Assembly: GCA_015521325.1 (NCBI GenBank)
Contig: WAOK01000033.1
Location: forward strand, 1 to 42,308
Source of the DNA: Desulfurococcales archaeon
GTDB lineage: Archaea > Thermoproteota > Thermoprotei_A > Sulfolobales > NBVN01
Direction of reading: 5' to 3'
DNA length: 42,308 nucleotides
Part shown: piece by piece, positions 1,637-40,506 of the stretch
Layout: every line of letters starts with the position of its first letter
Numbering within the stretch: position 1 is the stretch's first letter
Notes under the pieces: generated by a model
What the model saw: only the letters and a program-made list of their open reading frames with translations
Database searches by the model: none
What the model was told of the DNA's origin: nothing
Position numbers and translations under genes: made by a program

Positions 1637-3316
1637 TTGAGCCGTTCTAAGCAATCAATGCTAACGCGACCATACGCAGTTCTTATCCTCATAGCGATAT
1701 CGTTGGCAGGGGCAGCGATCTACTCGTCCATTGCATTCGACGCACTTACCTCACCGGATAAGAATGAGCCAGCCGTGGTGCTCGAGATACGGCCCGTCGT
1801 CGATGGTAGAATAGCGTCCCTCAGTAACGATTTAGTGGTATCGGTTCTCGTAACGGCGCCTCTTCCGCCGGACATGGTGCGTGAGTCGGGTAGGGATACT
1901 GCTGTGGTGTTTGCTGGGGCTGTGAAGAGATACGCCACGATATCTAGGGAGGTGCTCGGCCCCATTATTAAGGGATGGAATGAGCTGTTCTCGAGGAGAG
2001 GGGTCAGTGGCCGAGCATATATCGGTCTCTCAGTTCAGGTAGACGTAATTAACGTGTCAGCGCGGAGGTCTCTCCTCGCTGGTATAGAGTCGATCACGCT
2101 GGATCTGGAGACAGTTGCCAAGGGATACATAGGTCACTCCGTGCTAGGGATAGATATCTCAGCCAGTGATGAGACCCGAGTAGCTCGGCTAGGGGTTACT
2201 TCGGTTGAGTACTACGATCCCTCAACAGCTCCTATTAATTCTTGGTTCTTCAGCGATGAAGAGGAACAGGAACCTCTCTCGGCAGTATCGGACAACCATG
2301 ACGTATGCATCGACATAGGTGACGGGCTGAGGGAATGCTACAAGCCCACATATTACGCAGGCGTTGACGACTTCGCCGATGCCCTGCCCAGCGAGTATTT
2401 TAGGGTGGTGGATGGCGTCACCTACATGAGGGTTCCGGTGCTTGTCGCGGTCAATGACTTCCCGTCAATGAGTGCTACAGTAATAGTGAGCATAACCACT
2501 ACGGCAAGAAGTCCGGCACTCGGGGTGTACCCAACATACGCTATAGGGCCTAACATTGCTAAGATGCTCAACGATCCCAATTACCCGGAATTCGCCTCCG
2601 CCACGGTCTGGAAGGGTGGTGGGCTCGTGTGGGGAGGTGAGCGATTCGGCTTCCACAGGAGCCTCATTCTCCACCCACGCGGTGAGACCAACACAGGCTG
2701 GGTCTGGATATACGCTAGGCCCTACATAGAGATATACAGCGTCTACTTAGTAACTGATGCGGGAACCGACGCGATAGAGGAGGACGGCACGTACTTGCGG
2801 GATGACGTCACGTTCTCTATATCAGATATTCTGTTAAGCGGTGATGAGATAGAGTCAGGCTATGCCTACGGTATGCCCCACGAGATCATCAATAATTATT
2901 TCTTTGAAGGGACGGAGGAGGCCTTCGTAACGAGGCTATCTTCCGGTGGGTCCATAAGGCTCAAGACCGTGTTCCAGGCCTGTGATAAGTGCGGGGCCGA
3001 CTTCGAGATCGGGATACCGGTGGGGGCGATAGTCGCTGCCGCAGCGTCTCTCGCAGCCCCGCTCTCAGGCCCCGTAGCGGTGAGGTTGCCCGGTTTTGCC
3101 GTGAGCTTGAGCAATGTCGGCGCAAGCATATACATTGAGGGAGGTGTCCAGAACTATGGAGACGTTCCTGGAACTCCGGGAGATTATGATGTCGGTGAGA
3201 GTGTATATGTTAGGGTAAGCAAGTTTAGGTATAGGGCCGACCCTCCCTTGCTGTGTTTCCGGTGCTCTCCCTGCTACTATGTTGCTCCGGTGGGTATGTA
3301 TCTTCGGTTCCACTAG
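1637..3316 (+). CDS. Family-A exported protein, copy 1 (559 aa)
   Basis: TTG start. The N-terminus is a basic stretch then one hydrophobic helix (residues ~13-33, YAVLILIAISLAGAAIYSS), a signal anchor or signal peptide. The rest is a beta-rich ectodomain. It is a clear paralogue of the protein at 5881. Shared blocks are LPPDMV (~75); a Cys pair ahead of YYAGV (CIDIGDGLRECY, ~230); the VPVLV strand; WGGERFG followed by HPRG and WIYARPYIEIYSVYLV (~350-375); DFEIGIPVGA (~455); and a C-terminal CxxC block (CFRCSPCYYVAPVGMYLRF). The conserved Cys pairs suggest disulfides or a metal site outside the membrane. The family is not recognised and no enzyme motif is visible. Its promoter-like region also resembles that of its paralogue. 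Confidence 0.75.
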   Translation: MSRSKQSMLTRPYAVLILIAISLAGAAIYSSIAFDALTSPDKNEPAVVLEIRPVVDGRIASLSNDLVVSVLVTAPLPPDMVRESGRDTAVVFAGAVKRYATISREVLGPIIKGWNELFSRRGVSGRAYIGLSVQVDVINVSARRSLLAGIESITLDLETVAKGYIGHSVLGIDISASDETRVARLGVTSVEYYDPSTAPINSWFFSDEEEQEPLSAVSDNHDVCIDIGDGLRECYKPTYYAGVDDFADALPSEYFRVVDGVTYMRVPVLVAVNDFPSMSATVIVSITTTARSPALGVYPTYAIGPNIAKMLNDPNYPEFASATVWKGGGLVWGGERFGFHRSLILHPRGETNTGWVWIYARPYIEIYSVYLVTDAGTDAIEEDGTYLRDDVTFSISDILLSGDEIESGYAYGMPHEIINNYFFEGTEEAFVTRLSSGGSIRLKTVFQACDKCGADFEIGIPVGAIVAAAASLAAPLSGPVAVRLPGFAVSLSNVGASIYIEGGVQNYGDVPGTPGDYDVGESVYVRVSKFRYRADPPLLCFRCSPCYYVAPVGMYLRFH

Positions 3317-3323
3317 CTCGGGG

Positions 3324-4970
3324 CTAGGGCGCCTCCTTTTCGTTGCTTAGTTTCCTCGCTTTCTCCACAACCACCTTCTTCAGTATGTTCACTGGTAGGG
3401 CGCCTTCTTCGAGGAGTAGCTTGTGGAAAAGGGCGTTGCTGAAGCGCTGTCCGAGGATCTTCTTTACCTCCTCCCTGAGTGCCTTGATTACTTTCTTGCC
3501 GTACCAGTAGCTGAGCTGGTATGTCGGGGTCATGGTGTATCTCAGTACCTCGCCCTGCGCCCCGTCTCTCGGTAGGTATGCGTCCCTCACCAGTTTCTCA
3601 ACGGCTTTCTCGTAGGGTATGCCGTCCACGTGTATCTCTATGTCGAGGTAGACCCTCACAGCTCTCCATAGCGCGTCCTTCCATACCTGGACCCTGTAGT
3701 GAGGTGAGTTATCTATGCCCATCTCGAGCATGAGTTCTTCGCAGTAGTGGGCCCACCCCTCTATCAGGTCGTTCGCCTTAGCGAATATCCTCCTGTAGGG
3801 GTGCACGAACGCTTTCTCATAGACGTGCTGGGTGTGGTGCCCTGGGTAGGCCTCATGAATCACGGTGTTGAGGACGTCGTAGTAGCTGAACTTCTTCAGC
3901 CCCTCCTCACCTGCCGGCGGTGTCACCAGGTAGGTGCCGAGGAATGAGGGCCCGAACGCCTTCGGCGGCATGTAGGCGGCGAACGGTATCACTGGCTTGA
4001 GGTAGTCAGGGGTCTCGATCACCTGAACCCTCTCCCCCGGCGGCAGCTCAACCACGCCGTTCTCGTAGATGAACGACCTCACAGTGTCAACCATCTCAGC
4101 AACGAAGTCGAGGACTGCGGAGGCCTCCGACGGCGTGACCTCCTCAACGGCCTTGATCGCCTCCTCGATGCCCGAGACCCCCAGGTCCTTGGCCGCCTCA
4201 GCTATCCTCTCCCTATACATCTCGGCGTCCCTGTAGGACTCCAGCCTCAGCTCCTCCGGCGTCTCAGTTATGAATCTGTACTTCAGCATCTTGACGAACG
4301 GGTCCCAGCCAGTTGGCAGGTACCCTGGCTCCGCCTTACTCAGCATGTCCTGCAGCCTCCCGAGCTCCTTCCTAACGACATCGCCAGCCCTCTCCGCTAC
4401 CTCGCTGAGCTCCTCATCGCCCCACTCCTTGGCCAGGCCCTTAACGACCCCGAGGAGGGAGCCGATGCCCTGCCCAGCCGCGAGGGAGTACTGAACCCAG
4501 AGCTGGTAGGGCTTATCGGCAGCGTCTATCGAGGCGCTGACGTACTTCTGCAGCGCCGCCGGCCTCAGCCTCGCCTTTATTGCCTCAGCCACGTGCTCCC
4601 TCGGGAGCGTGGGGTCGATGATCAGGGGGAAGACCGCCTCCCCAACCATCGAGGGGCCGGCGGGGTACATGCGCCAGAGCGGCCAGTCAACGAGCTGGAC
4701 GAGGGCAAGCTTTAGGGTGTTCAGGACGACCGGGTAGTCAATTACCCTGGCCCCGCTTAGCTCGTCAGCGACGACATCGCTCTCGAGCCTCTCGATAAAG
4801 CGCTCTATGAGCGAGATCTCCTCAGCAACTCCCTCCCTGCTCATGTCCGGAACCATGAAGTCCCACTCATGTAGCCCCAGGTACGTCCCCATGAAGGGTG
4901 AGTGCCTGAGGAGCTCACTAACGAGCTCCTCCATAATCTGATCGAATGAGTCGTCCGACCGCGTGGGCAA
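3324..4970 (-). CDS. DUF885-family zinc metallopeptidase-like protein (548 aa)
   Basis: The protein carries HEAYPGHHTQ at about residues 369-378 and EGWAHYCEELM at ~402-412. This is the His/Glu arrangement of the DUF885 family of predicted zinc metallopeptidases, related to the M32/M3-like helical gluzincins. The N-terminal ~350 residues are mostly helical, as in that family, and overall length is typical. There is no signal peptide, so it is probably a cytosolic peptidase; the substrate cannot be told from sequence. The TTG start at 4970 gives MPTRSDDSF; an ATG at 4932-4934 (MEELVSELL) is a plausible alternative. It is convergent with the family-A gene (8-base gap) and divergent from the family-C gene, so it sits inside the A/C locus without sharing its transcription. 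Confidence 0.85.
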   Translation of the reverse strand: MPTRSDDSFDQIMEELVSELLRHSPFMGTYLGLHEWDFMVPDMSREGVAEEISLIERFIERLESDVVADELSGARVIDYPVVLNTLKLALVQLVDWPLWRMYPAGPSMVGEAVFPLIIDPTLPREHVAEAIKARLRPAALQKYVSASIDAADKPYQLWVQYSLAAGQGIGSLLGVVKGLAKEWGDEELSEVAERAGDVVRKELGRLQDMLSKAEPGYLPTGWDPFVKMLKYRFITETPEELRLESYRDAEMYRERIAEAAKDLGVSGIEEAIKAVEEVTPSEASAVLDFVAEMVDTVRSFIYENGVVELPPGERVQVIETPDYLKPVIPFAAYMPPKAFGPSFLGTYLVTPPAGEEGLKKFSYYDVLNTVIHEAYPGHHTQHVYEKAFVHPYRRIFAKANDLIEGWAHYCEELMLEMGIDNSPHYRVQVWKDALWRAVRVYLDIEIHVDGIPYEKAVEKLVRDAYLPRDGAQGEVLRYTMTPTYQLSYWYGKKVIKALREEVKKILGQRFSNALFHKLLLEEGALPVNILKKVVVEKARKLSNEKEAP

Positions 4971-5107
4971 ACTACAGCACCATCACTAATTCGGGTGAGG
5001 AACCATTAATCTATGCCTTCAGACATAGCGGCTGATGCGGCGCCTTCCACTGGTTACTGGACACGCTTATTTTTCCTTGACTCAAGTGTCTTGACGGGTT
5101 CACCGGT

Positions 5108-5818
5108 TTGGATAAAGCGCGTCTCATTGTGGCTGCTGTCGCCGCCGTTGCTGCTGGGCTGATGCTCTATGCTCTCATCCCGGGACTGACGTGCGGGCCC
5201 GTCTCCGAACCCGGTATTGAGCTCGTCTATCTCCACATAAAAGTCTATAACATATCATCCCAGGCACTAGGCCTTAGCAACAGGACGGTCGTGTCATTTG
5301 TTGCTGAGGTAGCTGTGAGGAATGATGGGGCGGTCCCGGTAAAACTCAGCAGAGTGACCCTGTCTCTGCCGGTGTACGTGAGTAGGCTGTATGAAGACGG
5401 CTCAGGCACCCACACAGTGACCGTGGCCACCACGGTACCTAGGGGCCAGGCAGGGCTATCCCCAAGCATAGTCAGCGAGGGATCCTTCATTGGCGCGCTG
5501 AGTGACGTACTTAACTACTCGAAGGAACTGAGCTACTCGATCCCGCCAGGGAGAGAGCTCAGGCTAATAATCGCGGGCTCCTCCCTCATGCCGACTGAGT
5601 GGGAGGGCAGGCTCATCAGCTCGTGGCTGCACGGCGGGAAATGGGCATACGTAGTCACTACCGTGTGGATAGAGGGGTGTAACGGTGGCGCAACCCCTTA
5701 CTCATTACTCACTAACGCGAGCCTGACTGAGGCCGGTTCTGGAGAGTATTACTACATGTCGGGTACTGCGCTCGAAATAATTAACTCCACAGCTACGGAG
5801 ACGCTCATCCCCGGGTGA
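5108..5818 (+). CDS. Family-C exported protein, copy 1 (236 aa)
   Basis: TTG start; a CGCTTATT TATA-like box at 5064-5071 predicts a short leader. One N-terminal hydrophobic helix (residues ~6-27) is followed by an immunoglobulin-like beta domain. It is paralogous to the protein at 8626. Matching blocks are AEVAVRND (AEVVVAND in the paralogue), a Thr/Val strand THTVTVATTV, SIPPGRELRLIIAGSSLMP (YIPPGYELHFVISGTVFLP) and the C-terminal NASLTEAGSGEYYYMSG (NATLLNGPDSTLYYLGP). Many N-x-S/T sites fit a glycosylated surface protein. It lies 62 bases before a family-A gene in the same direction, so A and C products may work together at the cell surface; that is inference. No known family is recognised. 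Confidence 0.7.
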   Translation: MDKARLIVAAVAAVAAGLMLYALIPGLTCGPVSEPGIELVYLHIKVYNISSQALGLSNRTVVSFVAEVAVRNDGAVPVKLSRVTLSLPVYVSRLYEDGSGTHTVTVATTVPRGQAGLSPSIVSEGSFIGALSDVLNYSKELSYSIPPGRELRLIIAGSSLMPTEWEGRLISSWLHGGKWAYVVTTVWIEGCNGGATPYSLLTNASLTEAGSGEYYYMSGTALEIINSTATETLIPG

Positions 5819-5880
5819 GGGCCTTAACACCGTAACTAACTTTACTTTTTTGTTTGATACGTTACTTATGTTGTGAAACC

Positions 5881-7548
5881 TTGGGCGTATTCCGAGATAA
5901 GGGTAAGGCACCGCTAACTATCATCGCGCTGATTACGGTGTCAGTGCTCGCTACGGCCTCGAGCCTCTACTTAACCACCGTGTCACCGGCGTCACCCATA
6001 GGCGAGCCCGCTGTTATCCTTTCGTTCCTTGCCTGGAGGAATGGCTTGGTGACGCACCTCGGCGACGACATGATTGTCTCGATCCTCGCCACGCTGCCCC
6101 TCCCTCCCGACATGGTCTCTGCGGAGGGCGTGGATACTTGGGTGGTCTACTCAGGCGTTGCTAGGGACAGGGCCGTTATCGCGTGGGAGAGGCTGGCCGA
6201 CATCATCGAGGGGTGGGTGAGGCTCTATAGGGGTAGGGGGAATGAGAACATGCCCTACATTGGGCTCATAGTCCGTGTCGATGTCGTTGACAAGGAATCT
6301 GGCGCCGTTGTTGCTGCGGGCATGACGTCCCTCCCCCTCGATACGGCCCTCTTGAGTGAGGGGCGGGCCGCTGCCTACACGCTGGTCATAGAGATGCCCG
6401 ATGATGGGGTTGTCGGCGTCGTGGGTGTTAGGGTTGCTGGCATCGATTACTACGACAGGTTCGCGGCGGCATCGATCCTCGCTGGCCCGCTGAGCGATGG
6501 CTCGGCACATCATCAGTCGCTTGAGGGGTTCGACGCGTGCAACTCGGTTGGCTCGGGCCTCATGATTTGCTACAGAAGGACCTACTACGTGGGTGTCGGC
6601 AACCTCACGGGGGTGTTGCCCGACGCGTACATCGTGCACGTCGGCGGCATAGCCTATGCTAAGGTACCTGTACTCATAGGCTACATTAACCTCAGTAAGC
6701 CGAGCCCCTTTATCACGGGCATATTAATGATACCCAGCCAATCATTTACCGCGGGCATCTATCCCGCTCTATTCATTGGTGAGGGTGTGGCCCACGCACT
6801 GAGGAACCCGTCCACGAAGGGGTTCCCTCCCGTGAGGCCATGGGTAGGGGACGGGCCCGCGTGGGGAGGCCGTGGGTACTACCTCTATCGTATTCTCTTC
6901 CTAGTCCCTAGGCCCCCTAGCAACGCGGGGTTGCTGTACATACTTGCCAGGCCGTACCTAGAGGTATTCAGCGTCTACCTCGTGCGTGGTGAGGGCGCCG
7001 AGTACCTTCACGACGAGGCCGTGGCATCAGTCTCGGACGTCCTCACGGTAAACAACAGAATCAACTGCTCGCGGGACGTGGCCGCTGAATACGCCGCCCT
7101 TCTCGAAGTCCTTGGCGCTGCTTCCAAGGAGGTGTATGTGGGAACCATACACCCTCCCAGCTCTTCACCCACCAACATATACCTTTATCAGGTCTATGAG
7201 GCGCTGGGGCTGCGGGGAACGGACTTCGAGATAAGTGTGCCGGTAGGGGCCTTCGCGGCCCTATTCATTCAGTCGTTGATTGGTGGGAGCGGGGTGAACG
7301 CCTCTGTTACCGTAACTGCCTTAGCGGGTGTCCAGGCATCCCTCAGCGTGGTGGGTGAGGGAGCTGTCTCCGGGTGGTTCCAGAATCATGGCGCCTTCGG
7401 GCACGTGCCGGGGTGTGTCAACGCGAGCAAGGACGTTTACGTGATGGTGAGTGCTGTGGGGTACGTGCAGCATCCTCCGTGGTGGTGTACGGACTGTGAC
7501 CCACAATATTATAACGTGTCAGCGGGGACGTACTTCAGGCTTGACTAG
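5881..7548 (+). CDS. Family-A exported protein, copy 2 (555 aa)
   Basis: Paralogue of the 1637 protein across its length: LPPDMV, CNSVGSGLMICYRRTYYVGV, VPVLIG, WGGRGYYLYRILF, ILARPYLEVFSVYLV, DFEISVPVGAFAA and a C-terminal CxxC (WCTDCDPQYYNVSAGTYFRL). One N-terminal membrane helix (PLTIIALITVSVLATASSLYL) exports or anchors it. The frame is open from TTG 5854, but that codon overlaps the T6-GTT promoter-like element (5846-5854). TTG 5881 keeps nearly the same promoter-to-start distance as copy 1 and gives a similar short basic N-terminus, so I chose it. It follows the family-C gene by 62 bases, and its stop shares a CTAG with the stop of convergent mpgP. Function unknown; no catalytic motif seen. 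Confidence 0.72.
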   Translation: MGVFRDKGKAPLTIIALITVSVLATASSLYLTTVSPASPIGEPAVILSFLAWRNGLVTHLGDDMIVSILATLPLPPDMVSAEGVDTWVVYSGVARDRAVIAWERLADIIEGWVRLYRGRGNENMPYIGLIVRVDVVDKESGAVVAAGMTSLPLDTALLSEGRAAAYTLVIEMPDDGVVGVVGVRVAGIDYYDRFAAASILAGPLSDGSAHHQSLEGFDACNSVGSGLMICYRRTYYVGVGNLTGVLPDAYIVHVGGIAYAKVPVLIGYINLSKPSPFITGILMIPSQSFTAGIYPALFIGEGVAHALRNPSTKGFPPVRPWVGDGPAWGGRGYYLYRILFLVPRPPSNAGLLYILARPYLEVFSVYLVRGEGAEYLHDEAVASVSDVLTVNNRINCSRDVAAEYAALLEVLGAASKEVYVGTIHPPSSSPTNIYLYQVYEALGLRGTDFEISVPVGAFAALFIQSLIGGSGVNASVTVTALAGVQASLSVVGEGAVSGWFQNHGAFGHVPGCVNASKDVYVMVSAVGYVQHPPWWCTDCDPQYYNVSAGTYFRLD

Positions 7549-8357
7549 GGTTCGGGCTGGTGCTGCATGGACTCGATGATTGGGGCGACGACCTCCTTGA
7601 CGGCCTTAGCCCACCACTCGGGGCCCCTCCCGGGATAGACGATGAGGTCCTCCCTCCCGACGGCCTTCGCCACGTCCTCCCTCCCACCTAGGAGTACGGG
7701 GATGTCGGCCTTCCTCAGCATCTCGACATCGTTTGAGCCGTCGCCCAGCGCCACTATTTTGGCTCCTGGGTACCTCGCCCTGAGGGCCCTTAGTGCCGTG
7801 CCTTTGTGGTGCGGGCCCGTGACCACGTACAGCCTCCCGCCGAAGGTGTACCTCAGGCCCCTCGCCACGACCTCCTCAGCCATCCTCGCGGCGCCCTCGC
7901 GGTCTATGGGCGCGTATACTACGCTGTACTCCCTCACCCTAGCGAGGCCCGCCAGGCTCGGCGGGAGCCCCGTTATCTTCGAGATCTCCTCGTCACTCAT
8001 CTCATCGATCAGCCTGATGGCGTGCCTGTATTCCTTAATGAGGTCCTCGATGAGGGCCCTGATGTTCTCGGCCCTTATGCCGAAGACCTCGGCCCAGTAA
8101 GGCCCAACCCTATCGGCGCCCTCAACAGGCTCCTCGTAGTAGATCGCTGCCCCGTTCTCCACGACGAAAGGATCCCTAAGACCTAGGGCCCTCCTGTAGA
8201 CCTCCTGCTCAGCCCTTGACTTGCTGGAGTTGAACACTATGGGCACGCCAGCACCCCTAAGCCACTCAATAGCATCCTCAGCGCCGCTGAACCAGTACGT
8301 CAGCGGATCCAGCAGCGTGCCATCGAGGTCAGTGACCACAACCACACCCGGCAACAC
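7545..8357 (-). CDS. mpgP: Mannosyl-3-phosphoglycerate phosphatase (HAD superfamily)
   Basis: Removes the phosphate from mannosyl-3-phosphoglycerate to give mannosylglycerate, a compatible solute of hyperthermophiles, in the cytosol. HAD motif I is DLDGTLLD (residues ~8-15). Motif II surrounds FNSSKSR, and the cap is followed by HHKGTALR and motif III/IV GDGSNDVEML (~203-212). The HHKG and FNSSK features favour MpgP of the type IIB HAD family over sucrose-phosphate or trehalose-phosphate phosphatases. The frame is open to 8438, but a GCTTATATG TATA box at 8384-8392 and the GGGGGAG just upstream place the start at GTG 8357 (or TTG 8354), giving 270 aa. The partner gene mpgS is 2.3 kb away on the other strand; in many archaea the two are adjacent, so the pair seems to have been separated here. 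Confidence 0.85.
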   Translation of the reverse strand: MLPGVVVVTDLDGTLLDPLTYWFSGAEDAIEWLRGAGVPIVFNSSKSRAEQEVYRRALGLRDPFVVENGAAIYYEEPVEGADRVGPYWAEVFGIRAENIRALIEDLIKEYRHAIRLIDEMSDEEISKITGLPPSLAGLARVREYSVVYAPIDREGAARMAEEVVARGLRYTFGGRLYVVTGPHHKGTALRALRARYPGAKIVALGDGSNDVEMLRKADIPVLLGGREDVAKAVGREDLIVYPGRGPEWWAKAVKEVVAPIIESMQHQPEP

Positions 8358-8383
8358 AGCTCCCCCACAACAAACAAACGAGA

Positions 8384-8392
8384 CATATAAGC
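8384..8392 (-). promoter_or_regulatory. TATA box of mpgP
   Basis: The minus strand reads GCTTATATG, 27-35 bases upstream of the GTG at 8357. This is the normal archaeal TATA-to-start spacing for a transcript with almost no leader. It argues against the longer frame starting at 8438, whose start lies upstream of the box. Confidence 0.6.
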
Positions 8393-8523
8393 GTGGCGGG
8401 GCCTTCTCCGCCGCGGTAGCTATTAACGCCACCCTCACAGCAGCGCCGGACGGCTCGTACTACTATCTCGGGCCCTATGCCCACATAATAGCAGGTTCTG
8501 ATGAGGTGAGCGAGGTATTCAGC
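8392..8523 (+). pseudogene. Decayed C-terminal fragment of a third family-C gene
   Basis: The frame beginning RGGAFSAAVAINATLTAAPD and continuing with SYYYLGPYAHIIAG matches the last ~45 residues of the family-C protein at 8626 (GRGSFHDTVVINATLLNGPD, LYYLGPYDHIIAD). The DNA is also similar around TACTATCT-GGGCCCTA and ATAATAGC. Upstream of 8392 the same frame runs into mpgP antisense with no start, signal peptide or family-C sequence, so only the 3' end survives. The frame stays open to 8613 with unrelated residues. This suggests an ancestral tandem array of family-C genes, one copy of which lost its 5' part. Its remnant now lies under the mpgP promoter. Confidence 0.6.
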
Positions 8524-8592
8524 ATCGGTGGGCATGACACCAGAGGCCGTTCAATCCTGTTTAACGCAGTGTTCACCGCCGTATACCTATAT

Positions 8593-8617
8593 CCCGTTAA
8601 GGAGGCCACTTAACGGG
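8593..8617. promoter_or_regulatory. Perfect 9-bp inverted repeat before the family-C/HTH operon
   Basis: CCCGTTAAG (8593-8601) and CTTAACGGG (8609-8617) are perfect inverted repeats separated by 7 bases (GAGGCCA). The structure ends 8 bases before the GTG of the family-C gene. It could be an operator (for instance for the winged-helix protein encoded at 9397), an mRNA hairpin or a terminator for upstream transcription; sequence alone does not decide. Confidence 0.5.
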
Positions 8618-8625
8618 GTACGCCA

Positions 8626-9393
8626 GTGCACAGAGCTGGGGCAGCACTAATTGGGGCGGCGATCGTCGCCGGCCTCGTGGTTGGGCTGACGCTCTTCCAG
8701 CCCGAGATAGGGCCCGCGAGGGAGTTCGAGGTGAGCGCCGGCCTCGCGTACCTGCGCCTCGAGCCCGCCAAGATCGTCAACGACCCCGTGCTAGGGAACG
8801 GCACGCTGCTGACGTACATGGCTGAGGTGGTGGTAGCGAACGACGAGGACACCACGCTGGTGCTCAAGACCTACGGACTCGAGCTCCCCGCCGAGATATA
8901 CGTGGCCGCAAGCAACTGCTCAGGGAGCACGGTAACGGTCACCATGACCGTGACCCGCCCAGGTAGCGGGGAGGCAGAGAAGGTCTCGTGCCTCGCCCCC
9001 CTTAAGGTGCCGCCGAATGAACAGGTGAGGCTGGGGGACACCTACCTCAGCAGTGAAGACCTGCTCCTTGGGAAGGAGTCGTTAAGGGTTGTGGAGCCGT
9101 CCTCATCGTTCTACATACCGCCGGGGTACGAACTCCACTTCGTGATCAGCGGGACGGTCTTCCTGCCGGAGCCAGCCGACAGTAGCATGTGGAAGGCCAT
9201 AGAGAAGGGGTGGGTCTTAGCTCTCATATCGGTGACGGGTCAAGGGTACGGAGGCAGGGGATCGTTCCACGACACAGTCGTCATCAACGCCACCCTCTTG
9301 AATGGCCCGGACAGTACCCTCTACTATCTGGGGCCCTACGATCACATAATAGCTGACCAGCCCGAGGAGGCCGGGATATTCCCGAGGAGCTAG
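8626..9393 (+). CDS. Family-C exported protein, copy 2 (255 aa)
   Basis: GTG start. An N-terminal hydrophobic helix (residues ~5-26, AALIGAAIVAGLVVGLTLF) leads into a beta-rich ectodomain paralogous to the 5108 protein (AEVVVAND, Thr/Val strand TVTVTMTVTRPG, YIPPGYELHFVISGTVFLP, INATLLNGPDSTLYYLGPY). It has several N-x-S/T sequons and two Cys (~97 and ~122) that could form a disulfide. The stop codon is 3 bases before the next gene's GTG, so it is co-transcribed with the membrane-bound winged-helix protein. That link suggests the regulator senses or controls the surface protein; this is inference. No known family recognised. Confidence 0.72.
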   Translation: MHRAGAALIGAAIVAGLVVGLTLFQPEIGPAREFEVSAGLAYLRLEPAKIVNDPVLGNGTLLTYMAEVVVANDEDTTLVLKTYGLELPAEIYVAASNCSGSTVTVTMTVTRPGSGEAEKVSCLAPLKVPPNEQVRLGDTYLSSEDLLLGKESLRVVEPSSSFYIPPGYELHFVISGTVFLPEPADSSMWKAIEKGWVLALISVTGQGYGGRGSFHDTVVINATLLNGPDSTLYYLGPYDHIIADQPEEAGIFPRS

Positions 9394-9396
9394 GAG

Positions 9397-9819
9397 GTGG
9401 TGGATCTGGGCACCAAGTTAGAGGGCACGCCCCTAAGGATTTACGCCTACCTCCTGAGGCACGGCCCCGCGGGCCCTAGGGAGGTAGCTAGGGTCGTGGG
9501 GCTCAGGTCCCCTAGCCTTGCGTACTACCACCTGAGGAAGCTGGAGGAGGCGGGCCTGGTCAGGCGCCTCCCGGGCGGCGAGTACGAGGCGGTCACTGAC
9601 TCAGGCATAGAGGGGTTCGTGGTCGTTGGTAAGTGGCTCGTCCCAAGGCTCCTAGCATACGCGGGGTTCTTCGCCGGCATGCTCGCCGTCGAGGCATACA
9701 CACTATGGTTGCGAATTACCTCTGGCCAGTCCATAACACCTGAATTCCTTGCCCTACTCTTCGTGACTTCACTCTCCCTGACCCTCTTCCTCATAGAGGG
9801 CATAAAATTCAGTAAGTAA
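9397..9819 (+). CDS. Membrane-anchored winged-helix (ArsR-like) regulator
   Basis: Residues ~10-65 form a winged helix-turn-helix: LRIYAYLLRHGPAGPREVARVVGL, then the recognition helix SPSLAYYHLRKLEEAGLVRR, then a short wing (PGGEYEAV). Two hydrophobic helices follow (~82-104, LLAYAGFFAGMLAVEAYTLWL; ~115-136, FLALLFVTSLSLTLFLIEGI). The protein would hold its DNA-binding domain at the inner face of the membrane, an arrangement known for several archaeal wHTH proteins. GGAGGTG overlaps the upstream stop; GTG 9397 or GTG 9400 could be the start. It is translationally coupled to the family-C gene. The obvious candidate target is the local A/C locus, including the inverted repeat at 8593-8617. The signal sensed is unknown. 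Confidence 0.75.
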   Translation: MVDLGTKLEGTPLRIYAYLLRHGPAGPREVARVVGLRSPSLAYYHLRKLEEAGLVRRLPGGEYEAVTDSGIEGFVVVGKWLVPRLLAYAGFFAGMLAVEAYTLWLRITSGQSITPEFLALLFVTSLSLTLFLIEGIKFSK

Positions 9820-9906
9820 GGCCCGCACAGCTGGAAAAATATCGATTATGGAAACTGAGGGTAGGGTATTAATTCGCTTTAACCAGGTATCAATCGAGGG
9901 CCCAGA

Positions 9907-10071
9907 ATGGTCAGCAACGAGATTAGAATAGTACTTGATAGAGAGACACTAAAAAAACTCCTGAGCTCCGAGAGAAGCTCTATTTCCAAGGGTATTAGCT
10001 CCATAATCGACGAATTTTCGGAGAAGGTTGAGGAAGATGTTCTAAAGAATTTTATTAATGAGAGGAGATGA
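9907..10071 (+). CDS. vapB: VapB-type antitoxin, 54 aa
   Basis: A short frame starting ATG at 9907, about 25 bases after a CGCTTTAA box at 9875-9882, so probably leaderless. The product begins with a basic/hydrophobic strand (NEIRIVLDRETLKKLL) followed by two helices (SISKGISSIIDEFSEKVEEDV). This is consistent with a small ribbon-helix-helix or helical antitoxin. It ends 3 bases before the PIN-domain gene, the standard antitoxin-then-toxin order. It would bind and inhibit the toxin and repress the pair. The region is more AT-rich than its neighbours (AAA, ATT, TTT codons), suggesting separate acquisition. The VapB role is inferred from position, size and fold pattern. Confidence 0.65.
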   Translation: MVSNEIRIVLDRETLKKLLSSERSSISKGISSIIDEFSEKVEEDVLKNFINERR

Positions 10072-10074
10072 TGA

Positions 10075-10536
10075 ATGGCAAACCTTGTTGTTGATGTTTC
10101 AGTTTTCATAGACTCACTCTTCGAGTATGATCGAGATAGGACATTGAGGGCTAGGAGCATATTTAAAGCAGTGGATACTGAAGGGCACGTTATACTCGAG
10201 CCCGAGATATTCGGGGTAGAATTGATCGCGCAATTAGTGAGAAGAAAGCCGAGGCGGGTAGCGGAAACGGTCTATGAAAAGATTATGAAGAGAATAATCT
10301 TGGTAGGGGACCTGAACTATTCTAAGCTTTTCAGAATAGCGCTGAAGACCGGGTGTAGGGCCATAGACGCGTTCTATATAGCCGCGGCAGAGGCATCTGA
10401 TGCGGTGCTCGTCACAGCCGATAAAATGATGGCTGACAACGCAAGAAAATACGGAGAAATAAGGTCTTACTACATCCACCGGGAGTCAGATTTCAGAGAC
10501 TTGTTATCCTTGCTAGGTCTGCGCCCGTTTTCATGA
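10075..10536 (+). CDS. vapC: VapC-type PIN-domain ribonuclease toxin
   Basis: A 153-aa PIN domain with the expected acidic residues: VVDVSVFID (Asp 7 and 13), a central Glu in EPEIFGVEL, IDAFYIAAA (Asp ~102) and VTADKMM (Asp ~120). These ligate Mg for cleavage of RNA, in VapC toxins often tRNA or rRNA. The ATG at 10075 is preceded by GAGGAGATGATGA, which carries the upstream stop and a Shine-Dalgarno. It is co-transcribed with the small antitoxin gene. Codon use is AT-richer than in the surrounding metabolic genes. The RNA target cannot be told from sequence. Confidence 0.85.
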   Translation: MANLVVDVSVFIDSLFEYDRDRTLRARSIFKAVDTEGHVILEPEIFGVELIAQLVRRKPRRVAETVYEKIMKRIILVGDLNYSKLFRIALKTGCRAIDAFYIAAAEASDAVLVTADKMMADNARKYGEIRSYYIHRESDFRDLLSLLGLRPFS

Positions 10537-10704
10537 GGAGTGATCATCTGCTGGCCCTTGAGTAATTGTTTTGATTAAGCTAGTCAGGTCTGCTTTGTTT
10601 TTGTTGGGTATCGGTGCTATTTGCGTGTGCTTGTTTTTATTGATGCAAAATTTTCTTGTCGTAGTTAATATGCGCGTCATCTATTATTCATTTAGGTGTG
10701 GTGG
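10537..10704 (+). other. AT-rich spacer and leader upstream of mpgS
   Basis: This is a T-rich segment unlike the GC-rich coding DNA around it. It holds a frame for a 70-aa hydrophobic peptide starting TTG at 10571 that overlaps mpgS out of frame; I think that frame is chance. TTTTTATTGATG (~10635) and ATTATTCATTT (~10683) are weak promoter candidates. AGGTG at 10694-10698 is a Shine-Dalgarno for the mpgS ATG. Confidence 0.4.
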
Positions 10705-11898
10705 ATGCGGCTTGAGATGCCTAGGTATATGGAGAGGCTCGGAGGAGTTAAGTTCTACGGGATCCAGAGGGTTCTTGAGTTAACGGGAGGCATAACTACC
10801 GGGCCTGCCGGCGACGCCCCAGGCACAGTTAACGTGAGCAGGGCTGACCTCGAGAACCTCGAGTCGGAGATGGCCATCATCGTGCCCGTTAAGGATGAGA
10901 ACCCGAAGCTGCTCGAGGGTGTTCTTTCTGGGATACCTCACGAGGCGTTCGTGATCATCGTGAGTAACTCGTCTCACGACGTCATCGATAGGTATAGGGT
11001 TGAGACGGACGTTGTCTTCCAGTTCTATAGACTCACGAGGAGGCCCTTCCTAATGATTCATCAGAAGGATAAGGCGCTTGCCAAGGCCCTAGCTGAGGCC
11101 GGCTACCCCTACATCATCGGCGAGGACGGTGTGGTGAGGAACGGTAAGGGGGAGGGCATGATAGTGGGGCTCATACTAGCTAAGGCCCTAGGGAAGAGGT
11201 ACGTGGGCTTCATCGACTCCGACAACTACATACCCGGGTCAGTGAACGAGTACGTCGACATATACGCGGCGGGGTTCTACATGGCCAAATCAAGGTACGC
11301 GATGGTGAGGCTGAAGTGGCCCTACAAGACCAAGTTCGTCGGGAGGAGGTTCTACTTCCGGAGGAGGGGGAGGGTGTCGGAGATAACGAACAAGTACATG
11401 AACATGCTCGTAGCGAGGGTCACCGGGTTCGAGTCAGACATCATACAGACGAGCAACGCCGGAGAGCACGCCATGACGATGGAGCTCGCGGAGAGGATGG
11501 CCTACAGCTCCGGCTTCAGCATAGAGCCCTACGAGGTAGTGCACCTACTAGAGAACTACACAGGGATCGAGAAATCCCCGCCCTACCCCGAGATGCTGAG
11601 CGAGGGCGTTGAGGTCTTCCAAGTCGAGCCAAGGAACCCGCACATACATGAGGAGAGGGGAGAGGAGCACATACCGAGGATGATGGCCGCGAGCCTAGGC
11701 ACGATATACCACTCCCGCCTGGCCGACGAGGACCTCAAGGCTAGGATAATAGATGAGCTGATAGCGAGGAGAGCCCTGAAGGCGGGAGAGGAGCCCCCGA
11801 AGCCGAGGGTAATGCCCCCATTCAAGGACGTTGACGCAAAGAAGGTCCTCGAGACCCTCGAGGCCGAGTCAGACACCCTCGCCTTCTTAGAGGACTGA
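10705..11898 (+). CDS. mpgS: Mannosyl-3-phosphoglycerate synthase (GT55)
   Basis: Transfers mannose from GDP-mannose to 3-phosphoglycerate, the first step of mannosylglycerate synthesis, in the cytosol. The N-terminus MRLEMPRYMERLGGVKFYG and the PVKDENPKLLEGVLSGIP block are characteristic of the family. The nucleotide-sugar/metal motif DSDN is at residues ~171-174. The ~397-aa length matches known MpgS. I chose ATG 10705 because AGGTG lies 6 bases upstream and family members begin at this point; GTG 10696 would add three residues. MpgP for the second step is encoded at 7545-8357 on the other strand. The genes differ in promoter and direction, so expression of the two steps is not coupled by an operon. 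Confidence 0.92.
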   Translation: MRLEMPRYMERLGGVKFYGIQRVLELTGGITTGPAGDAPGTVNVSRADLENLESEMAIIVPVKDENPKLLEGVLSGIPHEAFVIIVSNSSHDVIDRYRVETDVVFQFYRLTRRPFLMIHQKDKALAKALAEAGYPYIIGEDGVVRNGKGEGMIVGLILAKALGKRYVGFIDSDNYIPGSVNEYVDIYAAGFYMAKSRYAMVRLKWPYKTKFVGRRFYFRRRGRVSEITNKYMNMLVARVTGFESDIIQTSNAGEHAMTMELAERMAYSSGFSIEPYEVVHLLENYTGIEKSPPYPEMLSEGVEVFQVEPRNPHIHEERGEEHIPRMMAASLGTIYHSRLADEDLKARIIDELIARRALKAGEEPPKPRVMPPFKDVDAKKVLETLEAESDTLAFLED

Positions 11899-24710: not shown

Positions 24711-24778
24711 CTGAGCACGCCTCCCGGCCGCAGGGTCCGTGCCCGTGTTCGATTACCTAGAAATAGTGTTTCAGTGCT

Positions 24779-24788
24779 TAGCCTTATC
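24779..24788 (+). promoter_or_regulatory. Promoter element shared by the two beta-propeller genes (first copy)
   Basis: TAGCCTTATC ends 31 bases before GTG 24820; the identical decamer lies 33 bases before GTG 27288 of the paralogue. CCTTATC is a reasonable TATA box and GGTGGT at 24811-24816 a Shine-Dalgarno. Confidence 0.55.
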
Positions 24789-24819: not shown

Positions 24820-27177
24820 GTGAGGGCCTCCACCATATCGGCGGCGGCAGCGATCGTTGCTGCTGTCCTGGCCTCAGTAGCCGCCCTCTACGGCCCGCAC
24901 ACAAGTACTGAGCACTCGGGCGCTCCCTCATCAATCATGACGCTAGGACTCCCTGGCAGTGTGCCGCCGGAGGAGGTCTCCGCAATACTTAACGGCTCCG
25001 GCCCGGGCCCCCTCCCACCCTTGACCTTTAGGGGGATAATCCTCCTCGGCCCAGCCTCGGGCTCCGTTCAAGAGTACCTTGGATCACTGGGGGAGTCCGC
25101 CACGGGACAGCCTGTCCCAGGCATTGATGAAGGTGACATACTGAAGCTTGCCTCGCCGTACGCCCTGTACGTGAGCCGGGAGACACTGTACCTCATCAGG
25201 CTGTGGCCACCGAGCAATATGAGCGTGGCTGATAAGGTCATGCTCCCCAACATAGTGAAGGAGGGCCTAGCCAAACTCAACAGGACATGGTGGGTACCGA
25301 TACTCGTCAGGAACCCTCAAGTGCTGGTCCACGGCGACGCCGTGGTCGTGGCCTTCGTATACTTCTCCCATCACCTGCCGGGGTTCATAGCCTGCGGTAG
25401 GGCGGCCGAGGTAAGCATGGCTATAGGTGGGGAAAACGTGAGCCTCAAGATACCGGTATGTAGGGCCCTCGGCGACGAGTACGGAACCGCTGTAGCGGTC
25501 TTCAAGATCGGCGAAGGCAGGTTAGAGGCGGTGGCGCTACACCTGATCGAGGGGATGGCCCTCATCAACTCAAGGCTCGAGGAAGGTATCGCCTACTTCT
25601 TCCTTAGGCCAGTAAACCCCGTCATGACAGGTAAGGAAAGAATAGACAGCGTGCCAGTAATTGATGCCGGCCCATCATACATCGCCGCCGCCTCACCCTA
25701 CGGCAACTCAATAATAACGGTGGTTGCCCTCAACCCCGAGACCGGAGAGGTCGGTGTGACAAACGTCGCCCTGCCGCTGGCGGAGGTGACGAGGAAGATA
25801 TCGGTCTTCATGAGGAACCACACAGCATACATCCTCCTAACTGGCGGGCCGGGAGTAAGTGATGAGGCCCTAGCCGAGAAAATGATCGCCTGCGCAGACA
25901 ACGCGCCGAAAGGGCTAAGGGAGAGGCTTGAGGGATTAGGTAGCGGAGCGTCCCCCGACGAAGTACTGGGCGCTGTGAAGGAGTGGGCTGAGGACGTTCA
26001 AGAGGATGTCCTACCTATCATAAAGTGGTTAATACAGGCAGCTGGCAACGACCTGACCACCCTAAACAACACCATGAACAGGCTCAGACCGCCCTCGGAA
26101 TACAGGGAGGGCGTCGAGAAAGCGGAGGAGGAACTCGACAGGATGAGCGACTTCCTAAGCTGTGTCGCCGCCGTCGGCGACGGGGTCACGGCCTCGTCGA
26201 CGAGGATCGTGAAAATGGTGTTCCAGGGGTTGGTCGGCTCCGTTAGAGGGTCGGCCGAGGTCCCTGGCAAGGTACTTGACGGGTTCGGCGTGCACGATAC
26301 CGGGCAGTACCTTTACGTTTTGACGACGGATACCCCGGGCAAGCTATACTTAGCGGTCCGCCCCCTCAGCTTCAGCATAGTGTACGGTACCGTGCCGCCC
26401 TTATTCACCGATAACGGGTCAATACAGCACCGCATCGACAGGGCTGAGATATGGGGAACGGTTCATAGCGCCATCAACATAGCGTGGGCCCTTGAGTGGC
26501 TGAAGGCAGCGAACAGCTTAAGGGACATCGTCACAGCAGAACCGAGCCCGAGGGCTAAGCCATCCTCGTCCCTCTACATACTAAGGGAGATCGACCTCTC
26601 AACCGTCGCCTCCCTCACCGACCTAGCTCCCGGGGTGACGGTGCGAGTAGCTAAGTATGTGGGGAACTACCTCTACCTCGTGACTTACGAGCGTAAGAAC
26701 CCGCTCTACGCCGTCGATATCAGCGACCCCACCGATCCGGAGGCGCTGGGCTGGCTCGGGCTGCCTGGTTACAGCAAGTACCTGTTCCCGTTGGGTGATA
26801 GGTACCTAGTTGGCCTGAGTACTGAGAACTTAACACGGCTCAGGGTAGACCTGTACGACATTAGTGACCCGACCAACATAGTGAGGGCCTCGAGCACCCT
26901 CGCAGTGCCCGGCTCACTAACCACCGATCACCGCTCATTCCGGCCAATAAGCAACGACACCTTCACCGTATTCGTCACCGACCCCGAGCAGGGTAGGGGC
27001 GTGGCCGTGTTCAAAGTAGTGCCTGGTGATGTGCTCAGCTACCTTGGTTTCGTCAGCGTTGATAGCCCGCTGAGGTTCGCCACAATAGACGGGGTTCTTT
27101 ACGCTTTCGGAGAGGAGTTCATCATGGCGGCAGACCTGAGAAGCCTCGAAACCGTCGCCGGCATAAGCCTCACTTAA
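24820..27177 (+). CDS. Secreted beta-propeller domain protein, copy 1 (785 aa)
   Basis: The signal peptide (RASTISAAAAIVAAVLASVAAL) is followed by a region containing PVPGIDEGDILKLASPYALY (~98-117), the hallmark of the archaeal/bacterial 'beta propeller domain' family (secreted proteins distantly related to WD40). Blades follow, for example YVGNYLYLVTYE, YAVDISDPTDPEALGWLGLPGY, DLYDISDPTNIVRASS and the closing AVFKVVPGD. A helical insertion (~347-460, DEALAEKMIACADNAPKG through EELDRMSDFLSCVAAVGDG) interrupts the propeller. It is paralogous to the next gene through the whole length. There is no C-terminal anchor, so it is probably released or held by the surface layer. The role is unknown; a binding or scaffold function fits the fold. 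Confidence 0.85.
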   Translation: MRASTISAAAAIVAAVLASVAALYGPHTSTEHSGAPSSIMTLGLPGSVPPEEVSAILNGSGPGPLPPLTFRGIILLGPASGSVQEYLGSLGESATGQPVPGIDEGDILKLASPYALYVSRETLYLIRLWPPSNMSVADKVMLPNIVKEGLAKLNRTWWVPILVRNPQVLVHGDAVVVAFVYFSHHLPGFIACGRAAEVSMAIGGENVSLKIPVCRALGDEYGTAVAVFKIGEGRLEAVALHLIEGMALINSRLEEGIAYFFLRPVNPVMTGKERIDSVPVIDAGPSYIAAASPYGNSIITVVALNPETGEVGVTNVALPLAEVTRKISVFMRNHTAYILLTGGPGVSDEALAEKMIACADNAPKGLRERLEGLGSGASPDEVLGAVKEWAEDVQEDVLPIIKWLIQAAGNDLTTLNNTMNRLRPPSEYREGVEKAEEELDRMSDFLSCVAAVGDGVTASSTRIVKMVFQGLVGSVRGSAEVPGKVLDGFGVHDTGQYLYVLTTDTPGKLYLAVRPLSFSIVYGTVPPLFTDNGSIQHRIDRAEIWGTVHSAINIAWALEWLKAANSLRDIVTAEPSPRAKPSSSLYILREIDLSTVASLTDLAPGVTVRVAKYVGNYLYLVTYERKNPLYAVDISDPTDPEALGWLGLPGYSKYLFPLGDRYLVGLSTENLTRLRVDLYDISDPTNIVRASSTLAVPGSLTTDHRSFRPISNDTFTVFVTDPEQGRGVAVFKVVPGDVLSYLGFVSVDSPLRFATIDGVLYAFGEEFIMAADLRSLETVAGISLT

Positions 27178-27244
27178 GGCCATAGGGCCCTCTTTTCCCG
27201 TTACCGAAACCTGTTCGAGAGACTGGAACCCATGTTTCACTACC

Positions 27245-27254
27245 TAGCCTTATC
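27245..27254 (+). promoter_or_regulatory. Promoter element shared by the two beta-propeller genes (second copy)
   Basis: The same TAGCCTTATC decamer as at 24779-24788, 33 bases before GTG 27288. It shows the second gene has its own promoter, and its spacing decides the start codon. Confidence 0.55.
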
Positions 27255-27287
27255 TTCTCAGTAGTGACCCCATAACCGGTGCTAATC

Positions 27288-29756
27288 GTGAGGCTCACTG
27301 CAGTCTTAGGCGCCATCGCCCTCATCGCCGCTATAGCGGCTTCGGCTGCACTGTACCTGGTGCCACACCCGACCCAGCCGGTGACGCATACAGTGACTAC
27401 CCCGCCCCCGGCAGGGGAGATAGTGACTTACGGCCAGGCCGGCGAGGTCAGCCCTGAAGAGGCGAGGGAGATCCTGTTTGGGTCAAGGCGCGCCGAACTC
27501 CCGCTATTCCCCGTAGTAAAGGCAGGGTACTTAGGGGTGCCTGAGGGAGCACCGATCACGGCCCCCGTGATGGTGCCGGAGGCGTCCCTCGGCGGGGGAG
27601 AGTACGAGTACACCCAGACGAACGTGCAGGTGCCCGGCGTCGATGAGGGCGACATCCTCAAGCTGGCGCCGCCTTACGGACTCTACCTAGCGAGGGGCAG
27701 CCTCTACCTACTCAGGCTCTGGCCCCCGGAGAACCTCAGCATCATCGGCGAGAGCGCCCTCTCCGGCATCGTGTATGACGCCATATCCTCCGGCGCGATA
27801 AACGCCAGCACTGATGACTACGGGATCAGCGCCAGCGGAGGCCAGATCCTGGTGGTCGGCGACACCGCCGTGGTCGCGTTCACCTACCAGGTCATCCCGT
27901 CCGGTCCTCAATACTCGTGCACTAGTAACGAGACGCTCAACGTGACCGTCTCCGGCCACGAGTTCACGTTCGTCGTACCGAGGTGCTACCCGGTACCAAG
28001 CCTTCGGGGCACTATAGTGGCCACCTACAGGTTCGGTGACGAAGGTCTCCAGCTGGTCGGGTACCACGTCCTTTCGGGGCTGAGGCTAATTGAGTCAAGA
28101 CTCAGCGGCGGCGTGGTCTACCTATTCACCATGCCCTACACGTGGGTACCCACCGGCGAGGAAGGCGTGGACGGTGTTGGTGTCCTGGAGGCGGGCCCGA
28201 CCTACGTCATCGGCACCCCGGGAATGGTCAATACACTGGTAACAATCGCCGCCATAAGTCCGGGCACCGGAGAGGTCGGCGTGACAAACGTCATCCTCCC
28301 CGCTGAGGCAGTGGCCGGCAACGTCATCGTGTACATGAGGGAGGGAACGGCATACCTCATCACTAGGGACATGGCCCCGCCAGTGAGGGCTGAGGACATC
28401 GCTAAGGCGATTAGGGCCTGCGCTTGGAAGGCACCTGAAGACCTCAGGCAGAGGCTGGAGGCCCTGGGCCCGAACGCCTCACCGGATGATGTGCTAGCAG
28501 CGATTAAGTCCTGGGGTGAGGAGATGGAGAAGGAGCTGGCCCCCCTCGTCGAGTGGGTTCACGACATAACAGGAGGGATAATAACGGCGTACCCAACGAT
28601 GATCGATTGGGACGAGGAACTCACTCTGCCGGAGGATCTGAGCGAGCTACTCAGCAGCATCCACAAGGAAATGGATGTTATGGGCGAGTTCAGTGAGTGC
28701 GTGAGCGATGAACTCGGGAACTTGAGCGCTGCCTCAACAACCGTCGTTAAGGTAGTGTTTAGTGGGTTGAGCGGCGCAGTAGCAGCCTCGGCCAAGGTCC
28801 CTGGCACAGTATATGATAGGTTCGCGGTTCACGAGGACGGCAACTACCTCTACATAGTCACGACGGAGGAGCTAGGGCGCGCCTACCTACTCCCGCAGAC
28901 CCTACCACACATAGTAATCGGCGCCCCCTACGGCCCATACCCCGAGGGGGAGGCCAAGATACCGTTCTGGGTACTCATTACCGAGGTATTCAGTAGCATC
29001 GAAAGCCTCGACTACCTCGAGAACATGTCCGACCTGACAGACCTAGTCATTGTGGTACCCATGTGGGGCCAGCCGACAGGATCGTCGCTATACGTGCTCA
29101 ACGCCTCCGACCTCACCCAGGTCTCCTCCCTCACAGGCATAGCGCCTGGTGAGAGGGTCTACGCCGCCAGATACGTCGGTAACTACCTATACCTCGTGAC
29201 GTTCAGGAGGGTTGACCCACTGTTCGGCATAGACGTAAGCGACCCGACTAACCCGAGGGTACTTGGCTGGCTAGAGATACCTGGGTACAGCGAGTACCTT
29301 CACCCATGGGGCGACAAGTACCTTGTGGGTGTCGGGGTCGGTGAGTCATGGAGTCTCAAGGTGGATCTGTATGACGTGAGCGACCCAAGCAACATAACGA
29401 GGGTCTCGAGCGTTGAGGTGAGCGGTTGGTCCCAGGCGCTCTGGGAGCACCACGCCTTCCAACCAATAGATAACCAGACGTTCGCCATACCGGTGATGTT
29501 CTCTGATAAGGGCACCGGCATAGCCGTGTTCCAGGTAATGCCTGATGAGGGCCTGAAGTACCTCGGCACGGTGGGTGTGGAGGGCCCGCAGAGGTCTGCG
29601 AGGATCAATGACGTGCTCTACGCCTTCGGCTATGACTCTGTGGTCGCTGCCTCGTTCCCAGACCTGGGTGTCATTGCTCAGATACAGCTCTTTGAGGGGG
29701 GCGTGCATCCAGGCGTGACTACCGTGACTGTTGTGGAGACGGGAACCCCGGGCTGA
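27288..29756 (+). CDS. Secreted beta-propeller domain protein, copy 2 (822 aa)
   Basis: Paralogue of the preceding gene: signal peptide (RLTAVLGAIALIAAIAASAAL), a Thr/Pro linker, TNVQVPGVDEGDILKLAPPY (~111-130), the same helical insertion (~367-484, AEDIAKAIRACAWKAPEDLR and following), and matching C-terminal blades (YVGNYLYLVTFR, FGIDVSDPTNPRVLGWLEIPGY, DLYDVSDPSNITRVSS). It ends with a Thr/Val tail. The frame is open from GTG 27279, but GTG 27288 gives the same GTGAGG start context and promoter spacing as copy 1. The two are diverged but colinear, so this is an old tandem duplication. Function unknown; extracellular. Confidence 0.85.
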   Translation: MRLTAVLGAIALIAAIAASAALYLVPHPTQPVTHTVTTPPPAGEIVTYGQAGEVSPEEAREILFGSRRAELPLFPVVKAGYLGVPEGAPITAPVMVPEASLGGGEYEYTQTNVQVPGVDEGDILKLAPPYGLYLARGSLYLLRLWPPENLSIIGESALSGIVYDAISSGAINASTDDYGISASGGQILVVGDTAVVAFTYQVIPSGPQYSCTSNETLNVTVSGHEFTFVVPRCYPVPSLRGTIVATYRFGDEGLQLVGYHVLSGLRLIESRLSGGVVYLFTMPYTWVPTGEEGVDGVGVLEAGPTYVIGTPGMVNTLVTIAAISPGTGEVGVTNVILPAEAVAGNVIVYMREGTAYLITRDMAPPVRAEDIAKAIRACAWKAPEDLRQRLEALGPNASPDDVLAAIKSWGEEMEKELAPLVEWVHDITGGIITAYPTMIDWDEELTLPEDLSELLSSIHKEMDVMGEFSECVSDELGNLSAASTTVVKVVFSGLSGAVAASAKVPGTVYDRFAVHEDGNYLYIVTTEELGRAYLLPQTLPHIVIGAPYGPYPEGEAKIPFWVLITEVFSSIESLDYLENMSDLTDLVIVVPMWGQPTGSSLYVLNASDLTQVSSLTGIAPGERVYAARYVGNYLYLVTFRRVDPLFGIDVSDPTNPRVLGWLEIPGYSEYLHPWGDKYLVGVGVGESWSLKVDLYDVSDPSNITRVSSVEVSGWSQALWEHHAFQPIDNQTFAIPVMFSDKGTGIAVFQVMPDEGLKYLGTVGVEGPQRSARINDVLYAFGYDSVVAASFPDLGVIAQIQLFEGGVHPGVTTVTVVETGTPG

Positions 29757-40361: not shown

Positions 40362-40506
40362 AGAACCACCTCGTTTTATGAACAAATGAAGCAATAATAA
40401 AGACGCATTATACATAAATAATGCATAGAACAACCAAATAAATTACAAATGCGGTAAGCCCGAATTTTAGCTGAGAAAGTAAACGGGTGAGGAACCAGAA
40501 AGGAAA

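Follow-up and report, generated by a model that had tools for sequence, protein, structure and literature searches.

The 42,308-nucleotide stretch of DNA analysed here (the window) is contig C31 of a 1.72-Mb Desulfurococcales archaeon genome in 103 contigs (GCA_015521325.1, WAOK01000033.1). It encodes a small protein, W, with a winged helix-turn-helix (wHTH) domain and two membrane helices, directly behind the gene for an exported protein, C2; 15 kb from this pair lie the genes for two exported beta-propellers, B1 and B2. The prediction made here is that W, bound to the membrane, regulates the C2-W operon to which it belongs as well as the two propellers, probably by activation, with C most likely serving as its sensor, an interpretation that the sequence evidence makes probable. 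The exported beta-propeller regulon was absent from an initial annotation of the same window, which a model had made from the sequence alone. The predicted regulon comprises the following features:

8548-8574, plus strand: C2-W operator, CGTTC-N9-TAACG-N3-TGTTC, with a TATA-like box 13 bp on (8588-8592)
8626-9393, plus strand: C2, 255 aa, exported and of no known family, with one N-terminal membrane helix and a predicted beta-sandwich ectodomain
9397-9819, plus strand: W, 140 aa, wHTH followed by two C-terminal membrane helices, predicted membrane-anchored winged-helix regulator
24746-24772, plus strand: B1 operator-like site, TGTTC-N9-GAAAT-N3-TGTTTC, with TTAT at 24784-24787
24820-27177, plus strand: B1, 785 aa, exported PF09826 beta-propeller (E 2.5e-46), predicted W target
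27212-27238, plus strand: B2 operator, TGTTC-N9-GAACC-N3-TGTTTC, with TTAT at 27250-27253
27279-29756, plus strand: B2, 825 aa, exported PF09826 beta-propeller (E 2.3e-74), predicted W target

The coupling of the last C gene to a wHTH protein with two membrane helices had been noticed in the initial annotation and is confirmed. C2 and W are separated by 3 bp, the wHTH matches Pfam HTH_20 (E 7e-10, above the Pfam cut-off), and hydropathy places two C-terminal helices from about 20 residues after the wHTH, the first of them weak in the window copy and clear in orthologues. Profile searches of 214 genomes of the order, the base for all genome counts below, found the W family in 175 and C in 13. 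Of the 11 genomes in which the arrangement is visible, 8 have W directly behind C on the same strand, with gaps of -10 to +28 bp (loci L195, L196, L197, L198, L202, L203 and L207, and the window), which establishes the pairing as a feature of the sequences. C and the propellers are extracytoplasmic proteins, exported and membrane-anchored. The predicted model of C2 is a beta-sandwich behind one N-terminal helix, of low confidence (predicted local distance difference test, pLDDT, 57.7; predicted template modelling score, pTM, 0.61), and Foldseek comparison with known folds gave query TM-scores of at most 0.30 among the matches listed. In the Pfam search the PF09826 profile matched neither C2 nor its paralogue C1, nor the two A proteins described below, and profiles of C, A and W searched against PDB sequences returned nothing informative except an ArsR for the W HTH. 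Kinship of C with the other W partner families was considered and dropped, as hhalign found no similarity. An alignment of C held no sufficiently conserved stretch to serve as a query of the genome collection, and W took its place.

Linkage of W to exported genes extends well beyond C. At 54 W loci sampled across the order and picked by W alone, an exported neighbour, defined by an N-terminal helix, at most three helices and a distance within 400 bp, was present at 44, compared with 61 of the 219 other genes of the same loci (Fisher p 7e-13). The commonest partner is a PF09826 beta-propeller, either divergent or co-directional, at 35 of the 54 loci. Elsewhere the partner comes from a handful of different exported families, its gene placed directly upstream of W and its product often bearing a helix at both ends; this arrangement is also seen outside the order. 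In a tree of 85 W proteins the C-linked members nest inside the PF09826-linked clade (support 100/96), and two further W paralogues of the same genome (contigs C41 and C100) fall in other clades.

The promoters of these partners share an operator. An inverted motif was first read in the divergent intergenic regions between W and propeller genes and was also present upstream of C, and its full form, TGTTC-N8/9-GAACA-N3-5-TGTT(T)C, is common to propeller and C-W promoters. It points at the exported gene and always lies in front of it, even where W is oppositely oriented. The core GTTC-N8/9-GAAC has 37 matches in 548 kb, 25 of which fall near the starts of W, PF09826, C or A genes, regions that make up 6.7% of the sequence (binomial p 3e-21). 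Each of the 25 goes with a W, PF09826 or C gene, almost always 40-90 bp ahead of its start, and the other 12 approximate the chance expectation. A half-site model trained on 15 PF09826/W promoters, with no C promoter included, gave scores of 21.4-28.9 at every one of the nine C-W-type C promoters, among them the contig-broken copies in genomes G001 and G020, against a control 95% value of 13.7 and a highest true control of 19.1; the 'controls' that scored higher were those very C intergenic regions or the C2 promoter. Where a propeller gene has no W linkage, the operator is weaker and only moderately kept, but above control (p 2e-4). The TATA element follows at a fixed distance: in a set of 29 promoters, A/T fills positions 13-15 and 17 after the operator in 93-100% of cases and position 16 in 62%. 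The operator abuts the transcription factor B (TFB) recognition element (BRE)/TATA region, on the upstream side of BRE, and covers neither TATA nor the start. Looser descriptions were less discriminating: a position weight matrix with one spacing did not single out the C2 site over the whole window, which only the three-half-site, variable-spacing model did, and TGTTCN8GAACA with one mismatch gave 71 matches genome-wide, too many to be useful.

In the 42-kb window, a tolerant three-half-site pattern occurs once, at C2 (0.12 expected), and its position ahead of C is unchanged in the sister species G001 (L036) and at L195, L197, L198, L207 and L056. The C2 operator scores 21.9 in the half-site model, above the control 95% value, which is not exceeded at C1 (4.5), at the downstream mannosyl-3-phosphoglycerate synthase gene (6.7) or at the start of W; since W has no site of its own, it is presumably expressed from the C2 promoter. 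The start of a neighbouring phosphatase gene scores 14.8, just above the control value, in a zone that overlaps a C remnant and with a site that does not match the full pattern. B1 and B2, in tandem, account for all PF09826 genes found in the genome (159 and 251.5 bits, above the Pfam gathering cut-off of 22.4 bits), and the B1 promoter has the same architecture as that of C2. In the sister species G001 these C and propeller sites, including the B2 site (L255), are retained with different spacers. The pattern GTTC-N8/9-KAAM-N4-6-GTTY has five matches in the whole genome: three are the C2, B1 and B2 promoters and two lie inside coding sequence.

These features suggest a mechanism in which C2-W would be an autoregulated two-gene operon and W a one-component regulator, with its two helices in the cytoplasmic membrane and its winged helix in the cytoplasm. 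W would bind, probably as dimers, to the three GTTC/GAAC half-sites immediately upstream of BRE/TATA, and the bound promoters would drive exported, membrane-anchored proteins, namely those of C2-W, B1 and B2. W probably activates these genes and itself; activation is suggested because the operator position corresponds to that of the ArnR boxes of Sulfolobus acidocaldarius, which activate from -43 to -84 (PMC6396743). C most likely contacts W and relays an outside signal to it through the C membrane helix, and is proposed as the sensor because W has almost no outside part. This sensing step is the least certain part of the model, and C may be only a target.

Several observations weigh against the model. 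C stands without W behind it in genomes G032, G168 and G039 and can therefore exist without W; C1 in the window is likewise an orphan. One half-site of the C2 operator is imperfect (TAAC), and the B1 and B2 sites are weaker than that of C2 (control fractions 0.135 and 0.047), B1 being weak when taken alone. The pattern used for the whole genome was relaxed with the window sites already known, and its reversed control has two matches in the genome. The two further W paralogues could bind similar sites. Finally, several of the sampled genomes are closely related, so the p values overstate independence.

The strongest alternative, somewhat short of an even chance and compatible with the proposed regulon, is that C is merely a regulated surface protein, while W either responds to the membrane directly or has the propellers as its partners. 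W orthologues lie beside several unrelated exported families and without C in most genomes, the C-linked W arose inside the propeller-linked clade, and some C genes lack W; however, C and W are tightly coupled and, beyond the order, W and other partner families show the same gene arrangement, which looks like obligate partnership, and W has just a short outside loop. Repression within the same regulon is an unlikely alternative. A W repressor beside BRE/TATA would block the basal factors until an envelope signal released it, a large oligomer at an operator abutting this region could hinder TFB and the TATA-binding protein, and autoregulation is common for repressors. Sites placed before BRE, instead of covering TATA or the start, nevertheless argue against it, as do the ArnR boxes, which activate from a comparable place (PMC6396743). 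It is less likely again that the operator belongs to another, unlinked transcription factor with W merely in its regulon: the site always precedes the exported gene, even where W runs the opposite way, and is moderately kept at unlinked propellers, but across many genera the motif goes with genes that have a W-clade linkage, and the DNA-binding protein constantly beside it is W. The initial annotation had read A and C as one surface system controlled by the wHTH, and this is very improbable: A and C genes are interleaved in the window, with C1 ending 35 bp before A2, yet both families are present in only 3 of 214 genomes (G000, G001 and G032; 2.3 expected by chance), no conserved neighbour emerges in 36 A loci, and A1, A2 and C1 lack the operator. 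What survives of that reading is control of the C partner by the wHTH, supported by the recurrent gene pair and by an operator at C2 that is common to other W-linked promoters. The survey of other genomes that the annotation had proposed found A scattered, with 35 of its 38 genomes lacking C, an outcome that the annotation itself had named as refuting and that applies to A but not to the C-W pair; a single A-C-W system was rejected on survey, neighbour and operator results alike.

The genes concerned, and those between and beyond them, are:

1637-3316, plus strand: A1, 559 aa, exported protein of an unrecognised dispersed family, outside the W module
3324-4970, minus strand: DUF885 protein, inside the A-C-W interval
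5108-5818, plus strand: C1, 236 aa, diverged C paralogue, without W behind and without operator
5854-7548, plus strand: A2, 564 aa, second A paralogue, outside the W module
7545-8438, minus strand: mannosyl-3-phosphoglycerate phosphatase, inside the A-C-W interval
8371-8613 (open reading frame 8221-8613), plus strand: C remnant, retaining the 3' end of another C gene
10696-11898, plus strand: mannosyl-3-phosphoglycerate synthase, downstream of W

Open reading frames and alignments agree with the initial annotation on the two A paralogues, two C paralogues and C remnant. A1 and A2 align over their full length at 33% identity (E 5e-85) and C1 and C2 at 26% (E 1e-9); these matches, like that of the C remnant given below, are far above chance. 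One N-terminal hydrophobic helix is present in each intact A and C protein, and the families proved as unrecognisable as had been stated, with no Pfam or NCBIfam family assigned to A1, A2, C1 or C2. The C-terminal CxxC, described as conserved in A, is kept in part of that family only. A, present in 38 of the 214 genomes, is often broken or split, with some 20 homologues intact, and its neighbour families recur only in a few unrelated cases. Operator scores at A1 (12.9) and A2 (0.8) are below the control 95% value. No A gene was found in viral contigs, the A profile had no match among PDB sequences, and a structure model built from two sequences was unusable (pLDDT 34). A thus appears to be a bystander, a dispersed and seemingly dispensable exported protein that lies here by happenstance and outside the W module, because its co-occurrence with C is near chance, no neighbours recur and its genes are often broken. 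At loci L047, L050, L035 and L238, the gene is in several pieces (G029, G012 and G001) or, in G032, two A parts flank a 543-aa open reading frame as if a gene had inserted there. In G171 (L223) A adjoins, at a contig end, a protein similar to mannosyl-3-phosphoglycerate synthase (cluster 28), as near A2 in the window.

The C remnant matches residues 204-252 of C2, a 49-aa stretch at its end, at 49% identity (E 1e-12) and is cut off where the opposite-strand phosphatase gene begins, and this gene appears to have truncated an older C copy. The C2 operator sits just past the homologous part of the remnant. Behind W come a PIN gene and then the synthase; a small open reading frame and the PIN-domain gene (9879-10536) resemble a VapBC toxin-antitoxin pair. 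The mannosyl-3-phosphoglycerate phosphatase and synthase are split around C2-W, and W and the synthase also lie near each other in G001 (L137). A role for W in regulating mannosylglycerate synthesis was considered and is not supported, since the synthase has no operator; C-W operons of other genera adjoin other genes, which weakens the link further. The window also encodes an exported protein of 1988 aa, hydrophobic at its ends and without a Pfam match (34467-40433, minus strand).

Other W paralogues also have exported partners, double-anchored at L148, L149, L035 and L163, and some of these loci carry a variant site with TGTCC/GGACA half-sites, which suggests paralogue-specific recognition. 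Sulfolobaceae relatives of W (L186-L192) mostly stand beside a 170-220 aa exported protein and a protein of about 95 aa with two or three membrane helices, and no operator of the W-propeller/C type was found at these loci, the site at L186-L190 being a different one.

Hyperthermophilic Thermoproteota have few classical two-component systems, and the predicted module bears on how these organisms sense the outside of the cell. Sequence alone assigns to a widespread membrane regulator an operator of defined form, a predicted regulon of few genes and a group of exported partners, which makes it directly testable, and the orphan PF09826 propeller family gains its first regulatory context. Meanwhile, the most eye-catching genes of the locus, those of family A, are not the system. 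PF09826 ('Beta propeller domain') comprises secreted proteins, of which B1 and B2 are members and C is not. A literature search, with most subscription journals outside its reach so that absence is unproven, found no functional paper on PF09826 and nothing describing the W family, the operator or a tie between W and either PF09826 or C.

In bacteria, ToxR/ToxS and TcpP/TcpH likewise consist of a membrane-bound DNA-binding regulator encoded right beside an exported, membrane-anchored partner. Unlike ToxR and TcpP, W has two membrane helices and an ArsR/TrmB-like HTH_20 wHTH, and the likeness is one of arrangement, with no homology claimed. A wider reading, offered tentatively, is of a class-wide archaeal transmembrane module, a split counterpart of ToxR-type receptors, in which W would combine with at least six mutually unrelated exported, membrane-anchored ectodomains as exchangeable sensors (C, the PF09826 propellers and several families of 200-460 aa, many with a helix at each end) and a dedicated three-half-site operator would fire the exported gene. 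Membrane-bound regulators of W's general kind are already known (PMC10269533, and ArnR). Transmembrane transcription regulators (TTRs), common in bacteria and archaea including Thermoproteota, combine a DNA-binding domain and a membrane helix in one protein; W has both and is predicted to regulate transcription from the membrane as a TTR, and the available part of the TTR survey counts domains and helices and gives no operators or exported-protein linkage for the W family (PMC10269533). ArnR and ArnR1 of S. acidocaldarius differ from W by a putative HAMP and sensor domain between HTH and membrane (ArnR1 has at least 222 aa, W 140), by a box, TCGAC-N5-GTCGA, that the W-linked TGTTC-N8/9-GAACA site does not match, and by the lack, in the part of the source available, of a described exported partner gene (PMC6396743). 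Like W, they are archaeal one-component proteins with an N-terminal HTH and two C-terminal membrane helices, and, as in the W system, inverted repeats upstream of BRE/TATA serve the control of surface structures (PMC6396743).

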